Virus record (IMG/VR): IMGVR_UViG_3300023500_000010
Span: 1-41,963 of that record
DNA from: a virus
Length of the DNA stretch: 41,963 bases
Reading direction: 5' to 3' (one strand)
The notes under the pieces are model-generated. The model saw only the letters and a program-made list of their open reading frames with translations. It ran no database searches and was not told where the DNA came from. The position numbers and the translations under genes are program-made. Positions 365 through 41,963 of the stretch are shown piece after piece. Numbering within the stretch: position 1 is the first letter of the stretch; each line of letters starts with the position of its first letter.

Positions 365-423
365 TTGCACACAGTAGCTAACCTGTTATAATGACCATTC
401 ACACACAAACGGAGTTACAAAAA
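365..423 (+). promoter_or_regulatory. arm promoter P1 and conserved leader
   Basis: TTGCAC at 365-370, a 16-bp spacer containing AGTAGCTAACCTGT, and TATAAT at 387-392. The leader CACACACAAACGGAGTTACA supplies GGAG at 411-414, nine bases before the ATG at 424. The same promoter and leader recur before many small genes on both arms. An upstream ATG at 391 lies inside the -10 hexamer and cannot be the start. Confidence 0.85.
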
Positions 424-978
424 ATGCTCATCCGAGATTTAGAAGCTGTTGCCCTATGTATGCCCCGCGCCAACGTGCGCGACTGTCTCAATGGTGTACT
501 GTTCGCCAAGAATGGCGATATTGTCTGTACTGATGGCCAACGGTGCCACGTTGTCCAGACAGGGGAGAGCCGCGAAGCCGCGTTCATTTTGGGCTACGCT
601 GATGTTAAGCGCGTCATCCAAGCGGCCTCAGCAGCACAGCGCAGGCAGGGAGCTACATTCTTCGCGGATTTAGCTGCTGGAGTGGTACAGGTCGGAGCGG
701 CTACGTCTGACATTTTATGCAAACCGATTAACGCTGAATATGTCGATTACGTCGATTTTTTCCCCAAGGCCAACGAACAGCCTCAAGCGTTCGACTCGGT
801 AGGGTTAACCCTGCATGGGGAATACATGCACCACGTCACTAAAGGGCTGGCACTCCATACGGGGGCTAAGGAAGCGGCTAGTGTGCCTCTACATTTCTAC
901 CGCAACCGGAGCCGTGATTTTATGATACTGCTGCAAGAGGATTTCCGCGCTGTCGTGGTGGTGCAACGCATTCTATAA
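424..978 (+). CDS. beta sliding-clamp-like protein
   Basis: Product of 184 residues resembling one domain of the DNA polymerase III beta clamp. The N-terminal part has the clamp signature of a helix, then a strand with L-NGVLF, then CTDGQRCHVV (about residues 32-48), matching the clamp pattern in which a short strand leads into ATDGHRL. It is much shorter than a full clamp (about 370 residues), so it would have to oligomerise further or act as a clamp mimic or regulator. The start at 424 is chosen over 391 because 391 lies inside the -10 box of P1 and GGAG sits nine bases before 424. It is the first sizeable gene of the left arm, driven by its own promoter. The clamp-like assignment rests on motif recognition only. 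Confidence 0.6.
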   Translation: MLIRDLEAVALCMPRANVRDCLNGVLFAKNGDIVCTDGQRCHVVQTGESREAAFILGYADVKRVIQAASAAQRRQGATFFADLAAGVVQVGAATSDILCKPINAEYVDYVDFFPKANEQPQAFDSVGLTLHGEYMHHVTKGLALHTGAKEAASVPLHFYRNRSRDFMILLQEDFRAVVVVQRIL

Positions 979-1014
979 GGGTTTCATTTAGTTAACTAAA
1001 ACAGTGTAAATAGG

Positions 1015-1085
1015 TTGCATCTATTAGCTAACCTGTTTATACTGACCGCATACACACACAAACAAACAAACAAAGAGTTAATAAA
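1015..1085 (+). promoter_or_regulatory. arm promoter P2 and leader
   Basis: TTGCAT at 1015-1020, a 17-bp spacer with ATTAGCTAACCTGTT, and TATACT at 1038-1043. The leader has CACACACAAAC runs and AGAG at 1075-1078 before the ATG at 1086. It is nearly identical over about 45 bp to P3, so the two form direct repeats flanking the gene between them. Confidence 0.8.
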
Positions 1086-1337
1086 ATGAATGCCTACACC
1101 ACCGTCCGCACAGTCCGCAAGTTATTAGCCGCTCAGTTAATCGCTAAGAAGTACGCACGGCGCGTATTGTTGCGCGTAGCTGCATGGCTTAAGAGCCGCA
1201 CCCTTCCACGCGGTGGGTGGTTTGCTGCTGCTGAAATTGGTTACGTTGCGGACCGCTGCGCGGTTCGCGCGGTGGCCTCAATCAGCGTGGAGGCTGTTAC
1301 AGCCGTTCTACTAATTGGTGCTAATGTTTATAAATAG
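1086..1337 (+). CDS. small basic hypothetical protein
   Basis: Product of 83 residues that I do not recognise. The first 40 residues are strongly basic (many Arg/Lys with Ala/Leu, helix-prone); the last third is hydrophobic and could form a membrane-associated helix (about residues 63-80). It has its own promoter P2, and the next promoter P3 starts one base after its stop codon, so it is a self-contained promoter-gene cassette. Plausible roles include a small host-takeover protein, but nothing in the sequence identifies one. Confidence 0.6.
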   Translation: MNAYTTVRTVRKLLAAQLIAKKYARRVLLRVAAWLKSRTLPRGGWFAAAEIGYVADRCAVRAVASISVEAVTAVLLIGANVYK

Positions 1338-1338
1338 G

Positions 1339-1402
1339 TTGCATCTATTAGCTAACCTGTTTATAATGACCGCATACACAAACAACGGAGTTAAACAAAA
1401 TC
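1339..1402 (+). promoter_or_regulatory. arm promoter P3 and leader
   Basis: TTGCAT at 1339-1344, 17-bp spacer with ATTAGCTAACCTGTT, TATAAT at 1362-1367, then the leader CATACACAAACAACGGAG. The first ATG downstream (1403) opens a frame of only five codons, so this full promoter currently drives no substantial protein and may precede a deleted gene. Confidence 0.8.
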
Positions 1403-1420
1403 ATGAACCACCCACCGTAA
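1403..1420 (+). other. five-codon mini-ORF after P3
   Basis: The reading frame after P3 and its GGAG encodes MNHPP and stops. It may be the relic of a lost arm gene, or a translated leader. Its placement is exactly that of the real starts in the other cassettes. Confidence 0.3.
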
Positions 1421-1447
1421 ATAGATAACAAGTAAGCAAATAAAAGC

Positions 1448-1507
1448 TTGCACTTAGTGGCTAACCTGTTATAATAGACACATACACAAACAACGGAGTT
1501 ACAAAAA
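1448..1507 (+). promoter_or_regulatory. arm promoter P4 and leader
   Basis: TTGCAC at 1448-1453, 16-bp spacer with GTGGCTAACCTGT, TATAAT at 1470-1475, and GGAG at 1495-1498, nine bases before the ATG at 1508. This is the fourth copy of the cassette on the left arm. Confidence 0.82.
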
Positions 1508-1606
1508 ATGATCCCCATCCACCATGCAACACGCAACACGCAACACGCACCCAGCGAAACGCGCAGCCGACAGAAGCACGGAGGTAGCCGACAGAAAAAC
1601 GGGTAG
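1508..1606 (+). CDS. 32-residue basic, His/Gln/Arg-rich peptide
   Basis: A short frame with a well-formed promoter (P4) and ribosome-binding site. The product starts MIPIHHATRNTQ and is rich in His, Arg, Gln and Lys, with no hydrophobic core. The DNA contains small internal repeats (ACACGCA units and two copies of AGCCGACAGAA), so the peptide may be a decaying or recently shuffled gene. I cannot assign a function. The expression signals are stronger evidence than the peptide itself. Confidence 0.4.
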   Translation: MIPIHHATRNTQHAPSETRSRQKHGGSRQKNG

Positions 1607-1916
1607 CCAACGGAGGCCACCAACGCCCCGCCAGAAAACGCACCCCTAGGCCAATGCCAGAAAGCCAAAAAAGCCTAGCAACCCCTTAAACCCACTTAAC
1701 CCAATTTTAGAGCTTATTAAATTTGTTAACTTTTAGGCTACCGTCAGGTACAAGCTTATCTCGTTATTTATTTTATTTTATTTTATTTTATTTTATTTTA
1801 TTTTAGTGGTTTGCCTTGGCTGGACAAGCTAACCTACCCTCCGTAAGCAGAAGAACTTTTTGAGATCCGTGTCACCGAGTACCAAACCGGCGGCGCACTA
1901 AACTGGAATGAACAAT
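1607..1916. other. 310-base intergenic stretch
   Basis: Contains short imperfect repeats around 1607-1680, an A/T-rich stretch and the TTTTA array (1771-1805). I see no convincing gene, tRNA or sigma70 promoter in it. The downstream gene at 1917 may be read through from P4. Confidence 0.6.
1771..1805. repeat. TTTTA pentanucleotide array, seven copies
   Basis: Seven perfect TTTTA units preceded by a related TTATTTA. It is purely AT, lies between two genes, and is likely length-variable by slippage. Confidence 0.9.
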
Positions 1917-2438
1917 ATGAGAGCTAAACAGTACACCAAGCGACCTGCATATCTGCGCCTTAACTCAATCCGTAGCTTAATGCTGGTGGGCTTGATGGCT
2001 AGTAGCCTACTGCTCAACGCATCTACACCTGAGAAGGCGTATCAGGCCAACTGGTGCGATGGGCAGACGGAGTATCGGCTGCTTGACGCAACACGGGTGG
2101 ATTGCTTGACCGACAAGCGAGCTATAGAGTTTGATTTTGATAGCAAATGGGCAGAGTCCATGACGCAAGCCCTTCATTACGCCCGTATAACTAATAAGCG
2201 AGCAGCGGTGGTACTGATTGAGCGGTCTAACTCGTATATGAAGCACTTCCACCAACTAAAGCGGGTCATCGACTACAGCAATTTAGCGGTAGATTTGTGC
2301 TTAATCAGTAAGACTGGCCGTTATCTACTCGGTACTGCCCGTTCAGGGTGGTGCGTACACCGAACACTGGAGCCTAAACAGCGAGCTAACTGTGTTAGCT
2401 GCCACCAAGAGATCGGAACTAAGATAGCTATACCATAA
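1917..2438 (+). CDS. exported PD-(D/E)XK nuclease-like protein with CxxCH
   Basis: Product of 173 residues. A basic N-terminus is followed by a hydrophobic segment (about 21-34), which looks like a signal peptide or anchor, so the rest is probably periplasmic. The body has a restriction-endonuclease-like pattern: D62 in TRVDCLT, E71 and K78 in AIEFDFDSKW, then a helix and a buried strand AAVVLI. Small secreted bacterial proteins with this arrangement are familiar to me but their substrate is not settled. Near the C-terminus CVSCH (159-163) fits the heme c-binding motif CxxCH, or a metal site. The start at 1917 is preferred over 1908 because GGA (1905-1907) lies nine bases upstream of 1917 but touches the ATG at 1908. 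A strong terminator follows. Confidence 0.55.
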   Translation: MRAKQYTKRPAYLRLNSIRSLMLVGLMASSLLLNASTPEKAYQANWCDGQTEYRLLDATRVDCLTDKRAIEFDFDSKWAESMTQALHYARITNKRAAVVLIERSNSYMKHFHQLKRVIDYSNLAVDLCLISKTGRYLLGTARSGWCVHRTLEPKQRANCVSCHQEIGTKIAIP

Positions 2439-2592
2439 AGTCTCTAACACCTAAGCCATCTATACTACTTTAGTTGAGGTACTAAATTTATTACACTTAA
2501 TAAATACTATACCAGCAGGAAAAAGGTATTCTAGGATTTATTAAGTTTAATTAGTTCTTGACAGAGAGGCCGGTATTCCGTAAGCTTGATCG

Positions 2593-2674
2593 GGAAGGCA
2601 GGAAGCCATCAACTCCTTAAGACGTGTGTGAATTTAACCCCAGCAGTTGCTCCCAACTTCTGGGGTTTCTTTTT
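2593..2674 (+). ncRNA. candidate small RNA ending at the terminator
   Basis: TTGACA at 2558-2563 is followed, 17 bp on, by a weak -10 (TAAGCT, 2581-2586). A transcript from about 2593 would end at the strong terminator 2636-2674, giving roughly 80 nt with no coding frame. The 3' end abuts the stop codon of the oppositely oriented terminase gene. The weak -10 makes this tentative; the stretch may just be the 3' untranslated region of the upstream gene. Confidence 0.25.
2636..2674 (+). terminator. rho-independent terminator of the left arm
   Basis: Stem AACCCCAG paired with CTGGGGTT, continued by an inner stem AGTTG/CAACT around a CTCC loop, then TTCTTTTT. It ends rightward transcription of the early arm just before the convergent terminase gene. 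Confidence 0.88.
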
Positions 2675-2679
2675 GCCTG

Positions 2680-4377
2680 TTATAAACTGATTCCGCCTAT
2701 AACCTGCGCTGACTGCGCCCCGTGGTCACGGGCTTCTCCGGTGCTGTAGACCCGTTCGAGCGAGCGACCACTGATAAGGTACAGTAGGATATATTGCACC
2801 ATGTAGCGGGTAGCATCGGCACCGTGGTTCCAGTGCGCCCGACGAGGGTGTGTATTCCATGTGTTCGCTGTGTCGTTCCACTCTTTCGTATACTTCAACA
2901 TGCAATCGCTGATATAGCTACACTTCTTATCCAGATGTACGAAGGGCATAAATGCGCGGACGTTCTCTATGCCGTTCAGCAGGCCACTTTTGGGTAGGAT
3001 GGTGGTCTGAGTAAGCCCTCTGCTGTTCAAGATGTCCTCACGGCTCATACGCTCCTCTGATGAGATGTCCTTGACAGCCGCATCATGGGGTAAGCCCACA
3101 CGCGCAACTTGCCATCCCCTCCGTTCGACGATCTGGTGAAGGACATAATCGGCGTAGAATCCAATGAACTCCCCTGAGTTGTAATACTCCCCGATGATCC
3201 GCACACTGGGTACCCCGTCTAGCCCCTCAAAATATTGGAAGAACAGCAGCACTGTTAGATCATTCACGCCGATGTCGGCCACCATGTGTACTGGTAAGGC
3301 AGGGTCATATAGATCTTCTACTACGCGGTCAAGCCGCACCACATACTCAAGGTACCTCCGCGCCCAATAAGTGCCGTCTTTCGCTGCTGCAAAGGCTTCC
3401 TCTGGTGTTGCTGGGTACTCTTGGTGGATGTCGCCTTCCAACTCCCTGTGCTGGGAGACCCAGAAGTATTTTTGGTGCAGGCTTAGGTTAATGCCGTGCT
3501 TGGCCTTGAGCATGTCGAAGTAGTCCAGAGCCTTCTGGTCAATAGGCTGCTTGATGGTCTCAAGGCAATCTGGGTCGGTATGCCAAGGTAAGAAAACCGG
3601 CATAAAATCTTTTCCAGACAGTTCTTGAGCTGTCGCTTGCAGGCTGACTGCTGTATCCCACATAGTCTTGAAATCGTTGGCACCTTCGGCGGTTGACTCA
3701 ATGGCACCGATATTACCGGCTTTCAGGGTTTGCAGGGTGCCGGTCTTGGTCTCTCTGGCTCTCCGAGGGTTGTCATTGGCAATCTTGCCGAATTCGGAGA
3801 TGTGGAGGCGTTGCAAGGTGGCCGACCGGAAGCTGGTACGAATGAAGATGGAGGAGTTGTTTGTATAGCTACGCTCTGTGGTGTTTTTTGTCTGTACTCG
3901 TAGGTCAAGGAAGCTTAAGATTGCAGGGTCGAGGGTATCCCACAAGGTTTGCACCCTATCCAGCAGTGTAGCGGCCTCTGCCTTACCTTGAGCCATAAGG
4001 CCGCACTTAAGATTAGATCTAGTGAGGGCATCATCGTTGAATGAGACCAAGAAGTAAGTGGAGATCCCTTGTTGGCGGCTCTTTAAGATGATTAGCCGCC
4101 AATGCTGGAGGAGATACGAATGAACTACAAACTGCGCTCTGTTCATCTTGAACTCCACCAGATCGCCATACTTATTAACCACTGAGTACAGGTTATTCAT
4201 TCGCCAGAGCTTTGACGGTAGGTACTTCTCTATAAGCTCACCCTCTGTGCGTGGTTTGCTGTTAAGAAGCTCCCATAGATCGGATCGGTTGTTGAATAGT
4301 TGTAGGAATTCTTCCTCTCCTATGGCTGGCATTAAGTAACTACCGCCGTTAGCAGGAATGTAGAGAAGCTTACCCAT
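2680..4377 (-). CDS. terminase large subunit
   Basis: Product of 565 residues, a normal length for the packaging motor ATPase/nuclease. Seen: a Walker-A-like KSRQQGIST (99-107), Walker-B-like LHISEFG (191-197, catalytic Glu 195), and a C-terminal RNase-H-type nuclease with Asp in MVADIGVND (D368), the VGLPHDAAVKD segment (D432) and HGADA (518-522). Known role: it binds the portal, translocates DNA into the prohead and cuts the concatemer. It is the last gene of a leftward operon of RHH protein, small terminase and a membrane protein, and overlaps the membrane protein gene by 46 bases. The ribosome-binding site is weak, so translation may be coupled; ATG 17 codons further in is an alternative start. 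The gene is antisense to the structural block, which is unusual. Confidence 0.93.
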   Translation of the reverse strand: MGKLLYIPANGGSYLMPAIGEEEFLQLFNNRSDLWELLNSKPRTEGELIEKYLPSKLWRMNNLYSVVNKYGDLVEFKMNRAQFVVHSYLLQHWRLIILKSRQQGISTYFLVSFNDDALTRSNLKCGLMAQGKAEAATLLDRVQTLWDTLDPAILSFLDLRVQTKNTTERSYTNNSSIFIRTSFRSATLQRLHISEFGKIANDNPRRARETKTGTLQTLKAGNIGAIESTAEGANDFKTMWDTAVSLQATAQELSGKDFMPVFLPWHTDPDCLETIKQPIDQKALDYFDMLKAKHGINLSLHQKYFWVSQHRELEGDIHQEYPATPEEAFAAAKDGTYWARRYLEYVVRLDRVVEDLYDPALPVHMVADIGVNDLTVLLFFQYFEGLDGVPSVRIIGEYYNSGEFIGFYADYVLHQIVERRGWQVARVGLPHDAAVKDISSEERMSREDILNSRGLTQTTILPKSGLLNGIENVRAFMPFVHLDKKCSYISDCMLKYTKEWNDTANTWNTHPRRAHWNHGADATRYMVQYILLYLISGRSLERVYSTGEARDHGAQSAQVIGGISL

Positions 4378-6899: not shown

Positions 6900-7061
6900 A
6901 TGCAGTATTTGGTTGATCGGTTAAGTGAGTTTTCCACTTGGCGGGGTTTGGCTTTGCTTGGGGCGGCTGTCGGTATTGTGGTCAGTCCAGCGGATCTGAT
7001 GGCTTATTATAGTGTGTTCGTTGCTTTGGTTGGCGCATATAACGCTGTGACTAAGGGCTAA
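6900..7061 (+). CDS. holin (small two-helix membrane protein)
   Basis: Product of 53 residues, missed by length cut-offs. It starts MQYLVDRLSEFSTWRGL, then one hydrophobic helix (about 16-29), a Pro-Ala-Asp turn and a second helix (about 33-50), ending in Lys-Gly. This RLSE-STW-GLALL pattern is common in short phage holins of Gram-negative hosts. It would pore the inner membrane and release the endolysin encoded divergently next door. GGAG (6887-6890) is nine bases before the ATG. Its TAA overlaps the ATG of thyX by one base, so the two are probably co-translated. Confidence 0.72.
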   Translation: MQYLVDRLSEFSTWRGLALLGAAVGIVVSPADLMAYYSVFVALVGAYNAVTKG

Positions 7062-7672
7062 TGCGGGTAGAGCTGCTACATAGCACCCCTTTGTGGGTGT
7101 GCGCCCGTGCCATACGCAAGTGTTGGGCTTCGGAAGGGCGTTCAGATGCAGGTGGAGATAAAGATAAAGAGCTTATCGACCGTGTAGGCAACAAACACAA
7201 ACATGCCTCAACATTGGAACACTTGGTGTATACCTTCGAGATTGAAGGTATTGCCCGTGCCGTACTCCAAGAGTTAGCTAGACATAGGTTAAGTTCTTTT
7301 AGTGTTAAGTCTACGCGGTATACTCTCAAAGAGCTTAAAGAGGCTGATAGCATTACCTCCACCGTTGAAGCTAGTAGGTACTGCGTTATGACGGGTGCGC
7401 CTTTGGTGGACAAGGCGACAACTATGGCGTTAGCGGCTACGCAAGAGGCACTACGGGCAGGGGTCAAGAATGACCAAGCAAAGTTTAGTTTACCTGAGTC
7501 ATACCGCACTTCTTTAGTTTGGACAATCAATGCGAGAGCGTTACAGAATTTCTTGCAACTTCGCATGGCTCGCTCCGCTCTGTGGGCAATCCAAGATTTA
7601 GCTCTCGCTATCTATGATGCTTTGCCCGAAGACCACAAATACTTATTCAAAGAGCAACTACCCCAAGAGTAG
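7061..7672 (+). CDS. thyX: flavin-dependent thymidylate synthase
   Basis: Product of 203 residues. The ThyX signature RHRxxSxxxxSxR is present as RHRLSSFSVKSTR (74-86), and the substrate-binding segment with the helix NARALQNFLQLRMA follows near residue 165. Known reaction: dUMP plus methylene-tetrahydrofolate to dTMP, using FAD and NADPH. It supplies dTMP for phage DNA together with the dUTPase at 36.3 kb, which makes dUMP, and the dNMP kinase-like protein at 30 kb. Odd point: it lies in the late structural/lysis block, one base overlapping the holin gene, rather than with the other nucleotide genes. Confidence 0.95.
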   Translation: MRVELLHSTPLWVCARAIRKCWASEGRSDAGGDKDKELIDRVGNKHKHASTLEHLVYTFEIEGIARAVLQELARHRLSSFSVKSTRYTLKELKEADSITSTVEASRYCVMTGAPLVDKATTMALAATQEALRAGVKNDQAKFSLPESYRTSLVWTINARALQNFLQLRMARSALWAIQDLALAIYDALPEDHKYLFKEQLPQE

Positions 7673-36979: not shown

Positions 36980-37077
36980 GGCTCACCTACTTTTGTAACC
37001 GGCTCACCCGCGTTTTTTATACCCCTTCGGACGTGCTGGTGGGCAGCTCGTTTTGTTACCCCACTTTTCGCCTTGCC

Positions 37078-37257
37078 AAAAAGATTTAGGCGGCCAACCC
37101 CAATTTTGTATCCGCAAAAAGATTTAGGCGGCCAACCCCAATTTTGTATCCGCAAAAAGCTTTAGGCGGCCAACCCCAATTTTGTATCCGCAAAAAGATT
37201 TAGGCGGCCAACCCCAATTTTGTATCCGCAAAAAGCTTTAGGCGGCCATCTCAAATT
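37078..37257. repeat. 38-bp tandem repeat, five copies
   Basis: Units at 37078, 37116, 37154, 37192 and 37230, the last truncated or divergent. Consensus AAAAAGATTT-AGGCGGCC-AACCCCAATT-TTGTATCCGC; units 3 and 5 have GCTTT instead of GATTT. Each complete unit contains GTATCCGCA, two mismatches from the DnaA-box form TTATCCACA. There are no spacers, so it is not a CRISPR. A likely candidate for an origin or partition site. Confidence 0.92.
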
Positions 37258-37289
37258 TTTGCTAGTATAAGAGGTGTATGGCGCGTGTC

Positions 37290-37343: not shown

Positions 37344-37628
37344 CTACCCACGACAGCGATTTTTCCGCATTCGTGACAGACTCCGCTTAGTAGGGTTTGC
37401 GGCTACCCACTGAATCAGAGAGTCCCGACACACCACCAGCCCCGTGCGGTGGTCGAAAATGCGTACTGCGTAGCGGTGTAAATCACCCCGCCACAGTGGG
37501 CTGGTGCTATCCAACACCGTGCAGACCTCCCGCCATGTGCGGCAGTGCGCTTGCGGTCTATAGGGGGTGTAATAAAAATCCCCTTCGGCGTACCCTACCC
37601 CTGCCTGCTGCTCTATAGTGTAACTCAT
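37344..37628 (-). CDS. right-arm family protein A (RTGLVV family)
   Basis: Product of 94 residues. It shares with B, C, D and F the N-terminal MSYTI, then RTWREVC, the FDHRTGLVV core (about 58-66) and a basic C-terminus MRKNRCRG. Relative to C and F its 3' end is shifted by a frame: the DNA still reads TGGGTAGCCTG, but in another frame, so it lost the LPW-A ending. Own promoter at 37661-37689. Function unknown. Confidence 0.62.
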   Translation of the reverse strand: MSYTIEQQAGVGYAEGDFYYTPYRPQAHCRTWREVCTVLDSTSPLWRGDLHRYAVRIFDHRTGLVVCRDSLIQWVAANPTKRSLSRMRKNRCRG

Positions 37629-37660
37629 CTATTTGCTCGCTCTGTTGTGTGTGTGCGGTC

Positions 37661-37689
37661 AGTATAAACAGGTTAGCTAATGACCGCAA
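37661..37689 (-). promoter_or_regulatory. arm promoter for gene A
   Basis: TTGCGG (37684-37689), 17-bp spacer with ATTAGCTAACCTGTT, TATACT (37661-37666) on the minus strand. Upstream lies a 16-bp perfect palindrome (37698-37713). Confidence 0.78.
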
Positions 37690-37697
37690 GCACTAAA

Positions 37698-37713
37698 TCC
37701 CGTTTAAACGGGA
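37698..37713. promoter_or_regulatory. 16-bp perfect palindrome TCCCGTTTAAACGGGA
   Basis: Sits just upstream of the -35 of promoter A. Its sequence differs from TTAGCTAA, so it may be a site for another factor. Confidence 0.65.
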
Positions 37714-37751
37714 CTCAATGCTTCTATCTACGGCTGAGGTCTCCTTGTAGC

Positions 37752-38033
37752 CTAGGCTTCATGCGCCCACGGGAGGGTTTTTTTAGTCATTTTAGTCATG
37801 TGTGTATCAGGGTTTTCGGTCTCCCAGTCTGTGATATTCTCGCGGAACACCACAAGCCCTGTGCGGTGGTCGGTAATGCGGAAATCGTAGCCGTACCATA
37901 GGGGGCTACTACTCTGGTCTAGTTCATGGCAGACTGATAACCACGTACGGAACTGCGTTTGTGGCCTATAAGGTGCATAGTAGGGGCGGCCATCGTTTGT
38001 ACTGCCGTCGTGTTGCTCTATAGTGTAGCTCAT
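37752..38033 (-). CDS. right-arm family protein B (RTGLVV family)
   Basis: Product of 93 residues: MSYTIEQ start, FRTWLSVC, DFRITDHRTGLVV (about 50-62) and a C-terminal KKTLPWA. It has its own promoter (38069-38096). The paralogues differ mostly between the conserved blocks. Function unknown. Confidence 0.62.
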   Translation of the reverse strand: MSYTIEQHDGSTNDGRPYYAPYRPQTQFRTWLSVCHELDQSSSPLWYGYDFRITDHRTGLVVFRENITDWETENPDTHMTKMTKKTLPWAHEA

Positions 38034-38068
38034 GTTAGTTGCTCGCTCGCTCTGTTGTGTGAATGGTC

Positions 38069-38096
38069 ATTATAACAGGTTGGTTAGCGTGTGCAA
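38069..38096 (-). promoter_or_regulatory. arm promoter for gene B
   Basis: TTGCAC (38091-38096), 16-bp spacer ending AACCTGT, TATAAT (38069-38074). The leader retains CATTCACACAACAGAGCGAGC before the ATG, close to genes A, C and D. Confidence 0.78.
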
Positions 38097-38143
38097 CCGC
38101 TAACTAGCCTGTTTTAGCCATTTTGTGTGAATGGTGGTGGTGG

Positions 38144-38419
38144 CTACTTGCAGGCTGCCCACGGGAGGGTTTTTTTCCTCATTTGCCTGCACGTTTTTGG
38201 GTAGTTGGCCGCTACCCACAGACTCACGGAGGATTGGGAGACCACCAGCCCCGTGCGGTTGTCGCAGATCCTAAATTCGCGGCCATACCATAGGGGGCTA
38301 CTACTGCATAAAGCGGCGCAGACCTCCAGCCATGTGCGGTATGTTGCAAAATGGACGTATGAGGCGGCGCATTTTTCGCAACGGGGGTGGCCGTTTTGTT
38401 GCTGAATTGTGTAACTCAT
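38144..38419 (-). CDS. right-arm family protein C (RTGLVV family)
   Basis: Product of 91 residues: MSYTIQQQNG, YRTWLEVC, EFRICDNRTGLVV (about 48-60) and MRKKTLPWAACK at the end. Its ATG immediately follows the stop of D; the last four codons of D double as the leader of C. No promoter of its own, so it is probably read with F, E and D. Function unknown. Confidence 0.62.
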   Translation of the reverse strand: MSYTIQQQNGHPRCEKCAASYVHFATYRTWLEVCAALCSSSPLWYGREFRICDNRTGLVVSQSSVSLWVAANYPKTCRQMRKKTLPWAACK

Positions 38420-38695
38420 CTATTTGCTCGCTCTGTAGGTGGTGGGGTCAGTCCACGGAAGGGATTTTTTCGGCATCCGCCCCACGCGGCGGTATGGGTA
38501 GCCTATGTTAATCCACTCTACAACGTCTGCTCGCATTACTACCAACCCAGTGCGGTTGTCGAGGATTCGGAATCTAGAGCCGCACCAGATGAGGCTATCG
38601 CTAACACTCAGGGCGCGGCATACCTCCCGCCATGTGCTATATCGGCTATAATGCGTGTAGTAATCCCCGCCCAATTTCTCTACCGTGTACCTCAT
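38420..38695 (-). CDS. right-arm family protein D (RTGLVV family)
   Basis: Product of 91 residues: MRYTVEKLGG, YSTWREVC, FRILDNRTGLVV and KKSLPWT near the end. The last codons (Arg-Ala-Ser-Lys-stop) have the same DNA as the untranslated leaders of A and B. This shows that the family cassettes were duplicated and rejoined. It follows E closely and is probably in the same operon. Function unknown. Confidence 0.62.
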   Translation of the reverse strand: MRYTVEKLGGDYYTHYSRYSTWREVCRALSVSDSLIWCGSRFRILDNRTGLVVMRADVVEWINIGYPYRRVGRMPKKSLPWTDPTTYRASK

Positions 38696-38727
38696 CTATT
38701 TGCTCGCTCCGTGGCTAGTGATTAAAG

Positions 38728-38997
38728 TTAATCGTTAAAGAAGCAAAAATGGGGCTTTTCCTGTGCCTGCATACGCAAGGCAGTAATGGCCTTTCTTGGG
38801 TTTTTGATATAGAACGTGCGCGTGTGCGCCTCATATTTTGCGCTACCATAACAGATTTCAGTACATCTATTCCCTGAAATCAATACCCGTCTGGGAGCAT
38901 CTTGGGGTAAATAGGTATCGAGGGTTGCGGTTAACGGCGCGGGCTGCTTAGCTACACGGGCTGCTTTCTGTTTTCTGTTTTTTCGCATATTGCTCAT
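38728..38997 (-). CDS. small basic right-arm protein E
   Basis: Product of 89 residues, unrelated to the RTGLVV family. The N-terminus is very basic (MRKNRKQKAARVAKQ), the C-terminus aromatic (HFCFFND). AAAGGA is eight bases before the ATG. Its leader keeps fragments of the arm promoter (AACTAACC and ATTCACACAC) but lacks the -10 box, so it likely depends on the F promoter. Function unknown. Confidence 0.55.
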   Translation of the reverse strand: MSNMRKNRKQKAARVAKQPAPLTATLDTYLPQDAPRRVLISGNRCTEICYGSAKYEAHTRTFYIKNPRKAITALRMQAQEKPHFCFFND

Positions 38998-39042
38998 GGT
39001 AAAAATCCTTTGCCCCCATAAGGGGCGTGTGTGAATGGTTAG

Positions 39043-39321
39043 TTACTTGCAGGCTACCCACGGGAGGGCTGCGGCCTGTACCTGCCGCAAATGTGGTAGC
39101 ACTGGTGGGGAGCCTGCCTCTATAGCATGCCCCTGAATGCACAGCTCGGTTAGGTTCCGATTGTCGGTAATGCGAAAATTAGATCCATCCCAGAGCAGGC
39201 TATTGACGCGCTCCAGCTCCGTGCAGACCGCCGACCATGTTCGATAGGTAGAAAAATAAGTGTAAGAGGGGGTTCCATCGGGGCGCAGGCTACCGTTCTG
39301 CCTCTGGATAGTGTAGCTCAT
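39043..39321 (-). CDS. right-arm family protein F (divergent RTGLVV family)
   Basis: Product of 92 residues. The first 60 residues match the family (MSYTIQRQNG, YRTWSAVC, FRITDNR), but RTGLVV is replaced by NRNLTEL and the middle is different before the family ending ALPWVACK. It may be a recombinant or decaying copy. First gene of the probable F-E-D-C operon with its own promoter. Function unknown. Confidence 0.58.
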   Translation of the reverse strand: MSYTIQRQNGSLRPDGTPSYTYFSTYRTWSAVCTELERVNSLLWDGSNFRITDNRNLTELCIQGHAIEAGSPPVLPHLRQVQAAALPWVACK

Positions 39322-39354
39322 TTTTATTACTCCGTTGTTGTTAGTGTGTGGGTC

Positions 39355-39383
39355 ATTATAAACAGGTTAGTTAGTGACTGCAA
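39355..39383 (-). promoter_or_regulatory. arm promoter for gene F
   Basis: TTGCAG (39378-39383), 17-bp spacer with CTAACTAACCTGTT, TATAAT (39355-39360). It is nearly identical to the promoter of gene J and has GGAG in the leader. Confidence 0.8.
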
Positions 39384-39406
39384 GCACTAACTAACTATTA
39401 TTTTGC

Positions 39407-39481
39407 TTATGGTCGGCGTTCCGCCTTTACTAACTTAAATAGATCCCATAAGCCGCGCATTACATCGAGGACAAATAGCAT
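39407..39481 (-). CDS. 24-residue peptide behind a double operator
   Basis: Short frame with GGAG in the conserved leader position. The peptide MLFVLDVMRGLWDLFKLVKA plus ERRP is an amphipathic, basic-ended helix, possibly membrane-active. Its promoter carries the two best copies of the palindrome GTTAGCTAAC. It may be an autoregulated peptide. Real translation is unproven. Confidence 0.42.
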   Translation of the reverse strand: MLFVLDVMRGLWDLFKLVKAERRP

Positions 39482-39515
39482 TTTTATTACTCCGTTATTG
39501 TTAGTGTGAACGGGC

Positions 39516-39557
39516 AGGGTAACACGTTAGCTAACGATTACAAGCGTTAGCTAACGC
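39516..39557 (-). promoter_or_regulatory. promoter with two perfect GTTAGCTAAC palindromes
   Basis: TTGTAA (39538-39543), 16-bp spacer and weak -10 TACCCT (39516-39521). CGTTAGCTAACG (39525-39536, 12 bp) and GCGTTAGCTAACGC (39544-39557, 14 bp) are both perfect, with centres 20 bp apart, about two helical turns. They flank the -35, as in a repressed promoter. Confidence 0.72.
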
Positions 39558-39823
39558 TAGGTCAGGGGTTTTTGCCCCTCCGCTAGTGGCCATAATAGGT
39601 ACAGATTGCACGAATTACAGATCTTGAGCCGCTGAGATCTTAACAGCGTAAAACCGGTTGAGCCACAGACGCACGTTTTAGTGCTGTACCCCATCGGCTG
39701 CGCTAGTTGGTAGTGTCTAGCTAGGGGCTGCACGTTAGCTATAACAAAAATATTATTGTCCTCATCCTGCACACGCTGGAGCAGCGGCGCGTCTCGCAAG
39801 TGTGTTAGCAATTTAAACTGCAT
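39557..39823 (-). CDS. zinc-ribbon-like right-arm protein G
   Basis: Product of 88 residues. Four cysteines in CVCG (C51, C53) and CNSC (C69, C72) fit a zinc ribbon; the N-terminal half is ordinary alpha/beta. Start 39823 has GAGG nine bases upstream and overlaps the end of H. Possibly binds nucleic acid or a protein partner. Its stop overlaps the operator at 39544-39557 by one base. Confidence 0.55.
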   Translation of the reverse strand: MQFKLLTHLRDAPLLQRVQDEDNNIFVIANVQPLARHYQLAQPMGYSTKTCVCGSTGFTLLRSQRLKICNSCNLYLLWPLAEGQKPLT

Positions 39824-40181
39824 TTTCTGCTGCCTCATAGTTAGCGAGGGTGTACCAGCGGATCAGATTTTTGCAGACTGCTGTAATGTCTGCAATCCCG
39901 TCTAACTCTGCGTTGTCCTCGTCGTCATCCTCGTGGATGTCCCTCACCTCTGACAGCAGGTAAAGTAGCGGGACATCCCCCGCAAAAGCTGCCACTTCGA
40001 GGCGGCGTAGCAGCCGATACAGCAGGGGGCTAGCCCCGTCTGTTGTATCGGCGCGGTAGCCTCTGTTATAGGTTGGATAGTTACCCGATTTGTCCATTAA
40101 CCACTGACCCCGTGTAATAACGGCGATTAAATCGCCATCGGGAATGTGTAGGGTCAAGCTGCGTTGCTGGTGGTGGCTCAT
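39813..40181 (-). CDS. hypothetical right-arm protein H with acidic segment
   Basis: Product of 122 residues with an acidic run DIHEDDDEDNAELD (about 81-94) and otherwise helical composition. GGAG precedes the ATG. It has a different type of promoter (40244-40272) from the arm cassettes. Co-transcribed with G. Function unknown. Confidence 0.55.
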   Translation of the reverse strand: MSHHQQRSLTLHIPDGDLIAVITRGQWLMDKSGNYPTYNRGYRADTTDGASPLLYRLLRRLEVAAFAGDVPLLYLLSEVRDIHEDDDEDNAELDGIADITAVCKNLIRWYTLANYEAAENAV

Positions 40182-40208: not shown

Positions 40209-40224
40209 GCCGTAAAACTACGGC
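40209..40224. promoter_or_regulatory. inverted repeat GCCGTA-AAAC-TACGGC
   Basis: Perfect 6-bp arms with a four-base centre between the H promoter and the H start. It could act as an operator or form an RNA hairpin in the leader. Confidence 0.6.
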
Positions 40225-40243
40225 GCAAGGCACCTAATTAAGC

Positions 40244-40284: not shown

Positions 40285-40731
40285 CTAACACCTCGCATTG
40301 ATCAGAGCGCACGAGGTCTTCAAAACGCCCTCCCAATCTACGTTATGCTGGAGCCATGCGGGGACATCGTACCCAAGCAGCGAGCTACAGCAAGCTGCAC
40401 ATTCGGCGCGGCTACCTTGAAAAATCACAGCCTCCCCCAGCCGTCTCACTAGGTCGCCAGTGGCATCCACGCCGCCTATATCCACCAGCCAGGCTAATAC
40501 TTCTAGTTCTGTATCATCCAGCCCTTCCCAGATCTCAACCCACGCGCAGAGATCCCGCGCGGTGGTCAGGCTAACGCCGCTCCGTTCAAGCAACCGCCAT
40601 GCTGCCTCGTCATTCGTGGCATCGTGTGACGTAAACAGTACGACGCGGTCAGTAGCTACCGTTTTAGTTGCTGCGATGAGTTCGGCGGCTGTACCAATCA
40701 GGCCGCTATCTAAGTTTTTGAATTTAAGCAT
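40285..40731 (-). CDS. acidic right-arm protein I
   Basis: Product of 148 residues, helical and acidic (about 22 Asp/Glu against 12 Lys/Arg), with a segment LCAWVEIWEGLDDTELEVLA (about 72-91). The acidity and fold-like pattern recall DNA-mimic antirestriction proteins such as ArdA, but no ArdA signature is certain. GGAG precedes the ATG 40731. Own weak promoter at 40760-40788. Confidence 0.55.
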   Translation of the reverse strand: MLKFKNLDSGLIGTAAELIAATKTVATDRVVLFTSHDATNDEAAWRLLERSGVSLTTARDLCAWVEIWEGLDDTELEVLAWLVDIGGVDATGDLVRRLGEAVIFQGSRAECAACCSSLLGYDVPAWLQHNVDWEGVLKTSCALINARC

Positions 40732-40759
40732 TGTCTGAAGCTCCGTTTGTGTGTGGTCT

Positions 40760-40788
40760 AGTATAAACAGGTTAATTACTGGCAGCAG
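40760..40788 (-). promoter_or_regulatory. arm promoter for gene I
   Basis: Poor -35 (CTGCTG, 40783-40788) because it overlaps the last codons of J; then AATTAACCTGTT and TATACT (40760-40765). The rest of the cassette is conserved. Confidence 0.6.
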
Positions 40789-41234
40789 ATAACATACTGA
40801 CCGCATTCTACGGCGGTTCCGTCAGGGGCGAAGTGCGCCCCGTAGCCGTCACAAGCAGCGTATTTTTGTTGCAGTTCTTCCAAAGCCCCTTCATGACCTA
40901 ATATCAGTTCACCCAGTGCCTCAAACTGGCCGGCTTTTTGTATACCCTCGATGCACTCCGTGGATACATCGAGACAATCCGCCAGCAGCCACGGCATAAA
41001 ACAGCCCAACATATCGGGATCATCGCTTAATTCGATTACTTGGATTGAATCAATAACGCCCTCATCTATGAAGCGCAGATCTGAAACCATAAAATCATGG
41101 CTCCCTTGAGCTAATTGTTGTTCTAGCTCTGCTAGCTCTGACACGCTCAGGTAGGAAAGGTCTACATCAGCGGCTTTAAACGCCTCTATTTGGTCGGCTA
41201 CAAGTTGAGCAGTTTTAGCTATTTTGTGGTTCAT
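40776..41234 (-). CDS. highly acidic right-arm protein J (paralogue of K)
   Basis: Product of 152 residues with about 28 acidic and six basic residues. It shares with K the segment DLRFIDEG.ID, the helix around LGELILG and a nearly identical C-terminus GYGAHF.PDG.AVECGQYVI. Extreme acidity suggests a DNA- or protein-mimic role, such as anti-restriction or anti-defence, but this is inference. Start 41234 follows GGAG and the conserved leader. Confidence 0.6.
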   Translation of the reverse strand: MNHKIAKTAQLVADQIEAFKAADVDLSYLSVSELAELEQQLAQGSHDFMVSDLRFIDEGVIDSIQVIELSDDPDMLGCFMPWLLADCLDVSTECIEGIQKAGQFEALGELILGHEGALEELQQKYAACDGYGAHFAPDGTAVECGQYVICCQ

Positions 41235-41268
41235 TTTTTTGAAGCTCCGTTTGTGTGTGTGAATGGTC

Positions 41269-41297
41269 ATTATAAACAGGTTAGTTAGTGACTGCAA
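41269..41297 (-). promoter_or_regulatory. arm promoter for gene J
   Basis: TTGCAG (41292-41297), 17-bp spacer with CTAACTAACCTGTT, TATAAT (41269-41274). Its -35 lies inside the inverted repeat 41292-41318. Confidence 0.82.
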
Positions 41298-41318
41298 CAG
41301 CTATAATAGCTGTTGCAG
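41292..41318. promoter_or_regulatory. perfect 13-bp inverted repeat between K and J
   Basis: CTGCAACAGCTAT and ATAGCTGTTGCAG separated by one base. It overlaps the -35 of gene J's promoter. It could be an operator or a bidirectional hairpin that also ends transcription of K. Confidence 0.72.
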
Positions 41319-41326
41319 CAGATTAA

Positions 41327-41776
41327 TTACTGGCAGCAGATAACATACTGACCGCATTCAACGGCGGCTTTACCGTCAGGGGAAAAATGCGCCCCGTACC
41401 CTCTATGCCAAGTGTAGCTCCGTTGCAGCTCTTCTACTGCGTTGGGCTGGCCTAACAGCAGTTCACCGATACGGCGGAACTCGGCGGCGGCTTGTAGGCT
41501 CTCGATGTAGGCTAGGGGGTGGTTAAGTAGCCGCTGGACTAGAGTCCAAGGTGCGAAACTCCCTAGGTGATCTTGGTCGGCGCGTAATTCCTCGACCATT
41601 ATCAAATCTATAAAATTCTGATCTATAAAGCGCAAATTTGAGATTGTAAAGTCGAACGTCCCCTTAGCTAAATGCACTTTTAGTTCTGATAGCTCTGTAG
41701 AGTTGAGTCCAGACAGATCAACACCAGCGGCGACGAGGTGATCAGTTGTAGTAGTAGCTGTAGTAGTGTGGCGCAT
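41327..41776 (-). CDS. right-arm protein K (paralogue of J)
   Basis: Product of 149 residues. Thr/His-rich N-terminus (MRHTTTATTTT), then the J-like segments NLRFIDQNFID and IGELLLG, and the C-terminus GYGAHFSPDGKAAVECGQY. Less acidic than J. GGAG precedes the ATG 41776. It is the outermost gene of the right arm. Confidence 0.6.
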   Translation of the reverse strand: MRHTTTATTTTDHLVAAGVDLSGLNSTELSELKVHLAKGTFDFTISNLRFIDQNFIDLIMVEELRADQDHLGSFAPWTLVQRLLNHPLAYIESLQAAAEFRRIGELLLGQPNAVEELQRSYTWHRGYGAHFSPDGKAAVECGQYVICCQ

Positions 41777-41822
41777 TGTAACTCCGTGTTTGTGTGTGTT
41801 TGTGTGTTTGTGTGTGGGGTCT

Positions 41823-41851
41823 ATTCTAAACAGGTTAGCTACTAGGCGCAA
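41823..41851 (-). promoter_or_regulatory. arm promoter for gene K
   Basis: TTGCGC (41846-41851), 17-bp spacer with GTAGCTAACCTGTT, TAGAAT (41823-41828), followed by a long CACACAAACA-rich leader and GGAG. Confidence 0.78.
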
Positions 41852-41894
41852 GCTATTTATTCATTTATTTATTTGTTTATTTGTCTATTTGTTT

Positions 41895-41963
41895 GTGGTG
41901 GTCTGTGGTGGTCTGTGGTGGTCTGTGGTGGTCTGTGGTGGTCTGTGGTGGTCTGTGGTGGTC
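41895..41963. repeat. 10-bp tandem repeat GTGGTGGTCT at the right contig end
   Basis: Seven copies (the last one base short), reaching the last base. The left end also starts in GTG repeats, so the two ends may belong to one array. Confidence 0.92.

Follow-up and report, generated by a model that had tools for sequence, protein, structure and literature searches.

The window, by which we mean the whole virus record of 41,963 bp analysed here, carries 11 copies of a promoter-leader cassette in front of about ten small genes that appear to be early, judging by their position and type only (Table 1). Each unit occupies about 60 bp and consists of a -35 element (TTGC), a spacer containing CTAACCTGT, a -10 element, an A/C-rich leader and an SD sequence, with 57-75 nt from the -35 to the start codon across the 11 copies. 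The preliminary description had counted four rightward and seven leftward copies, and all 11 are present at or adjoining the places where it had put them. Its account of the individual elements fits most copies but not all: TTGCA, from the proposed TTGCAN, is exact in 7 of 11 and the spacer block CTAACCTGT in 8 of 11; a TATAAT-like -10 is found at 16-17 bp in ten copies, but copy 39543 reads TACCCT instead; and the leader ends in GGAG in most copies, with AGAGCGAG or AGAG in three. Because copy 39543 is without a -10 and the -35 of copy 40788 (CTGCTG) is poor, we count nine to ten copies as apparently functional. For the first gene the start codon is at 424 and not, as had been proposed, at 391, where the ATG lies inside TATAATG; its orthologue in a second phage (G002, see below) aligns from 424.

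Table 1. Cassette copies, cassette fragments and inverted repeats in the window. In the text, copies are named by the first base of their -35, which is the lower coordinate on the + strand and the higher one on the - strand; PWM, score against the 24-nt position weight matrix.
Feature	Position	Strand	PWM	Description
Cassette 1	365..423	+	36.4	TTGCAC-16-TATAAT, leader, GGAG; clamp-like gene from 424
Cassette 2	1015..1085	+	36.5	83-aa gene 1086-1337
Cassette 3	1339..1402	+		5-codon ORF only (MNHPP) downstream; core identical to cassette 2
Cassette 4	1448..1507	+	33.9	32-codon ORF downstream
Cassette 5	41777..41851	-	35.5	gene 41327-41776
Cassette 6	41235..41297	-	37.3	gene 40776-41234, paralogue of 41327-41776
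Cassette 7	40732..40788	-	28.6	gene 40285-40731; -35 replaced by 3' end of preceding gene
Cassette 8	39482..39543	-	27.8	24-residue ORF 39407-39481; -10 lost; perfect 12-bp inverted repeat (p=0.005)
Cassette 9	39322..39383	-	37.3	gene 39043-39321 (MSYTI family)
Cassette 10	38034..38096	-	30.2	gene 37752-38033 (MSYTI family)
Cassette 11	37629..37689	-	36.6	gene 37344-37628 (MSYTI family)
Decayed G002-type cassette	40210..40228	-		TTGCGCCGTAGTTTTACGG, no -10; before gene 39813-40181
Cassette remnant	39027..39045	-		TAACTAACC joined to ATTCACACAC, without 14 nt containing the -10
Leader fragment	38125..38133	-		CATTCACAC, promoter absent
Mirror half-cassette	38091..38114	+	22.3	opposite cassette 10, no -10
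11-bp inverted repeat	39366..39395	-		around the -35 of cassette 9; scored terminator-like, tail CTGTTTATAA
Similar inverted repeats	38074-38113 and 39525-39556			similar to the repeat at 39366..39395

The MSYTI (MSYTIEQ) family comprises five paralogues of about 92 aa within 37344-39321; the members scanned had no Pfam match, and comparing the predicted structure of the family (pLDDT 83) with the PDB and with viral models gave no significant hit. Two further paralogous early proteins, of about 150 aa, are encoded at 40776-41776, and the one at 40776-41234 matches hypothetical proteins of large Aeromonas, Rheinheimera and Pseudomonas phages at 33-37%. No homologues of the 40285 family were found in bacterial genomes, the structure predicted for 1086-1337 was too poor to use, and neither a regulator nor an HTH protein was recognised in the window with Pfam and PHROGs. 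Downstream of the MSYTI genes lie five tandem 38-bp units of the GGCGGCCAACCCCAATTTTGTATCCGCAAAAAG type (37039-37266), which may have a role in replication or packaging.

Portal, primase-polymerase, capsid, terminase and replication genes place the window among the Kafunavirus-like podoviruses. Its portal is 78% identical to that of the closer contig G001 and 61% to that of MW202744, and Pseudoalteromonas PH1, Vibrio VPMS1, Edwardsiella KF-1 and Dickeya Amaethon are other relatives in the lineage. A ThyX-type thymidylate synthase (7061-7672) stands just before the major capsid gene in the window, whereas the relatives keep this gene among those for replication. The two sets of cassettes had been assigned to both genome arms; they probably belong to one early region of a circular or circularly permuted genome, the apparent arms being an effect of the contig cut, because relatives are recorded as circular with the order terminase, small genes, primase at this place. 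Separate arms were rejected since the related Kafunavirus-like genomes are circular and have a single early region in the same position. No overlap was found between the window ends, and we infer their join from the relatives only. Both ends finish in GTGGTGG-type repeats: GTG-rich tandem repeats occupy 1-50 and 41891-41963 (GTGGTG; TGTGGTGGTC). In G002 (L017 1-120), GTGACGTG repeats form the contig end and lead directly into the first cassette, so that the two contigs are interrupted at a similar repeat where the early region begins.

We derived a 24-nt matrix from these same 11 copies and scanned both strands of the window. On either strand the 11 highest-scoring places are these copies (27.8-37.3), followed by the mirror half-copy at 38091 and then by unrelated sites from 13.2 down, and in leave-one-out scans no copy ranked lower than 12th among about 84,000 positions. 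Twelve places scored above 14, against a mean of 0.17 per genome in first-order Markov sequence, where the highest score was 23.9, in one of 60 simulations; the repetition that had been described is thus well beyond chance. All matches above 14 are confined to the early region and adjoin promoters or promoter remnants. Furthermore, CTAACCTGTT occurs 9 times against 0.12 expected. Identity between copies is 0.91 in the -35 TTGC and 0.94 in CTAACCTGT, 0.45 in the variable part of the spacer and 0.39 in the 12 nt upstream. That one half of the spacer is fixed and the other free argues against recent common origin alone, and the conserved block would seem to be more than shared ancestry.

In 10 of the 11 copies the two hexamers are 16-17 bp apart, within the 16-18 bp of sigma70-type early promoters, with a -35 (TTGC--) that only weakly matches TTGACA; because of this weak match, a simple sigma70 scan did not show the region to be enriched in promoters. 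The window proteins searched did not include a phage RNA polymerase, which makes the host polymerase the enzyme likely to read the cassettes. No RNA family in Rfam matched.

The proposed spread by duplication is supported by cores that are 100% identical before unrelated genes and by gene-less cassette fragments. The cores at 1015 and 1339 are identical, one before the 83-aa gene and the other before a five-codon ORF, and so are those of cassettes 6 and 9 (41297 and 39383) though their genes are unrelated, which points to cassettes that move independently of genes. Inverted repeats of 11-16 bp are centred on the -35 in copies 39543, 39383 and 38096 (p 0.005-0.010), and copy 41297 has a 12-bp repeat just upstream; in the remaining seven copies, including all those on the + strand, the repeat is weaker or absent (p 0.015-0.83). 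We looked for one dyad that all 11 copies would share and rejected it, the best axes differing between copies.

The MSYTI gene family, used as a query, led to a second phage, IMGVR_UViG_3300009408_000010 (G002), which has one MSYTI orthologue (72% identity). It gave no portal match to the window and has different DNA polymerase, connector, primase and ribonucleotide reductase genes, while the two phages have in common four families of early genes (58-77% aa) and an endolysin that is 90% identical. G002 carries five cassettes, TTGC[A/G]CCGTAA-N3-TTACGGTGTA, which share with the window cassette the TTGC -35, a 16-bp spacer, a TATAAT-like -10, a CACAC leader (in most) and orthologous genes. On the other hand, some of their leaders contain a stem-loop and their spacer is a perfect dyad, CCGTAA-N3-TTACGG, with invariant arms and AAA, TCG or TTT at the centre (5 dyad cassettes observed, 0.0016 expected). 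Fixed arms around a varying centre look like the signature of a dimeric protein's site; the window site, unlike that of G002, is not a clean dyad. Each of three orthologous gene pairs (window/G002 1086/3503, 77% aa; 424/2461, 58%; 40285/963, 61%) carries the spacer type of the resident phage, in both genomes. A shared host is plausible, since GC is equal (50.2% in the window, 50.1% in G002), the endolysins are 90% alike and in oligonucleotide usage the window resembles G002 (0.48) more than it does most of its own lineage (0.22-0.36, but 0.76 for G001). If the host is shared, its RNA polymerase itself would need no CTAACCTGT.

The window's own spacer was found in no other genome, either by exact searches of 2.9 million viral contigs or by a distant search of phage records. 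The cassette is absent from the closest relative, G001, whose contig ends inside the early region and which has repeated leaders of its own. In MW202744 the repeated unit is a hairpin, a TTATACTA-N9-TAGTATAA dyad and a leader; three such 86-nt units stand before small early genes (L008 40533-41204), their arms fixed and their centre variable. A distant relative by the clamp-like gene, L022, has a TTGAC promoter with different spacer palindromes; its five 86-nt promoter-leader copies (589-3336; TTGAC..TAAAAT, AAGGAG) have a palindrome that varies within the genome. No comparable repeat family was seen in the early region of KF-1, VPMS1, PH1 or Amaethon. Such units are common but not universal among these phages.

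We think it probable that the cassettes are sigma70-type early promoters whose spacer is a putative operator for a phage-specific regulator. Each unit would be a strong promoter for the host RNA polymerase fused to a standard translation leader, and the conserved block TA[A/G]CTAACCTGTT would most likely be the operator of a phage-specific DNA-binding protein. The host polymerase would fire every copy at entry, until the accumulating regulator covered the spacer between the -35 and the -10 and blocked all copies together, shutting down coordinately, or otherwise timing, the whole gene set; most likely it would act as a repressor and bring early transcription to an end. With its A/C-rich sequence, low structure and GGAG, the leader would ensure efficient translation. 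Copies would arise through duplication and recombination, separately from genes, and would be kept alike because any early gene under control must carry the resident operator. We infer that the promoters are active and fire early, that a phage-specific regulator binds the spacer, and that it represses instead of activating. Conservation of CTAACCTGT at the level of the -35, with far more variable bases between them, counts for an operator, as do the invariant dyad arms in G002, the resident spacer type on each of the orthologues and the G002-type relict without a -10 in the window; the lack of a recognised regulator and of a clean dyad in the window site counts against it, and so do the searches that met the window's spacer in no other genome and the sigma70 scan. 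The phage-specific regulon of small early genes that had been suggested, perhaps under one factor, finds good support in the same layout with a different palindromic spacer on the G002 orthologues, but the controlling factor was not found.

The main rival is a T4-style optimised promoter, an 'uber' early promoter in which extra consensus bases aid the host polymerase and no phage regulator is bound. T4 early promoters do carry extra consensus regions beyond the standard elements (PMC2988021), and in the copies with a 16-bp spacer CTGT-TATAAT forms an extended -10. The TG is nevertheless off the extended -10 distance in the 17-bp copies, and G002, probably in the same host, has an unrelated palindromic spacer on orthologous genes, so that we regard this explanation as unlikely. 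Recombination among the copies of one genome, with no selection on the spacer, could by concerted evolution alone have produced the two pairs of identical cores, and active duplication and deletion are evident from the fragments and remnants; we consider it quite improbable, however, as variation is restricted to certain parts of the unit, one half of the spacer being far more variable than the other, and, in G002, to the dyad centre between two fixed arms.

We give very little credence to composite terminator-promoters of the PeSL kind, in which an inverted repeat would insulate neighbours and act as a recombination site, the identity of the copies serving recombination and not a regulator. 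The strong repeats at 39543, 39383 and 38096, the one upstream of 41297, the terminator-like score of one repeat and the hairpin, dyad and leader unit of the sister phage MW202744 speak for it; seven copies with a weaker repeat or none, and the lack of a proper U-run after the repeat, speak against it. Where the inverted repeat is strong, in three or four copies, the cassette may have such a terminator-promoter function.

Small early genes preceded by repeated promoter units have been described in a few model phages, most of them temperate. The closest known kind is the ESAS of cluster K mycobacteriophages, intergenic units of about 46 bp repeated before small genes, which combine a -35/-10 promoter of 17-18 bp spacing with an inverted repeat, differ in consensus between subclusters and are linked to a translation-start element (PMC3203893, PMC11373665). 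Like them, the window cassette is a repeated promoter unit before small genes, tied to a translation-start element. ESAS, however, come from temperate phages of an actinobacterial host and are unrelated in sequence; their SAS is a 13-bp start-site motif where the window has an A/C-rich leader, and the variable element of the window cassette lies within the promoter spacer and is not a clean dyad. An inverted repeat conserved across copies is present in G002, but is strong in only 3-4 of 11 window copies, and instead of the SAS motif GGGATAGGAGCCC downstream the leaders read CACACAAAC..GGAG.

SPBRE of SPbeta, a repeated element in many promoter regions bound by the master regulator MrpR (PMC10516654), indicates that such repeats can be the sites of one repressor. 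As in the window, a conserved element recurs in many promoters within a single phage, and most of the genes behind it have no known function; SPBRE differs in belonging to a temperate Bacillus phage, in its unrelated sequence and in having a known regulator, whereas no candidate regulator was found in the window. The stoperators of cluster A mycobacteriophages are numerous asymmetric repressor sites whose phage-specific motifs set regulatory identity (PMC6550527, PMC9283540). The window sites are likewise phage-specific motifs, but stoperators are spread over the genome and stop elongation, whereas the window sites are confined to early-region promoters, with none scattered genome-wide outside promoters. 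As the window unit lacks the defining sequence features of both ESAS and stoperators, it is of their general kind and not a member of either. PeSL cassettes of T4-like phages, as far as they are described where PMC4503421 cites Arbiol 2010 and Comeau 2014, similarly join an early promoter to a stem-loop and are linked to the shuffling of small early genes; they come from T4-like myoviruses, and in the window a significant inverted repeat accompanies the promoter in a minority of copies (3-4 of 11).

Two otherwise unrelated phages thus carry orthologous genes in a common frame with a different putative operator, which suggests that each virus labels its own early genes with a private regulatory tag. 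This amounts to a natural operator-swap experiment, in which the requirements of the host polymerase can be told apart from the contribution of the phage, and it makes testable how newly acquired genes come under phage control. The cassettes also offer a sequence-based starting point in the search for the early regulators of the two phages. More tentatively, and with some doubt on our part, phages from separate lineages but probably with the same host could exchange small early genes and re-dress each with their own private operator inside an otherwise shared promoter-leader frame. If so, the spacer would be a tag of regulatory identity, spreading within the genome as it takes the place of the spacer on newly arriving genes, and would allow a phage to silence its own early genes while leaving those of a co-infecting rival untouched.
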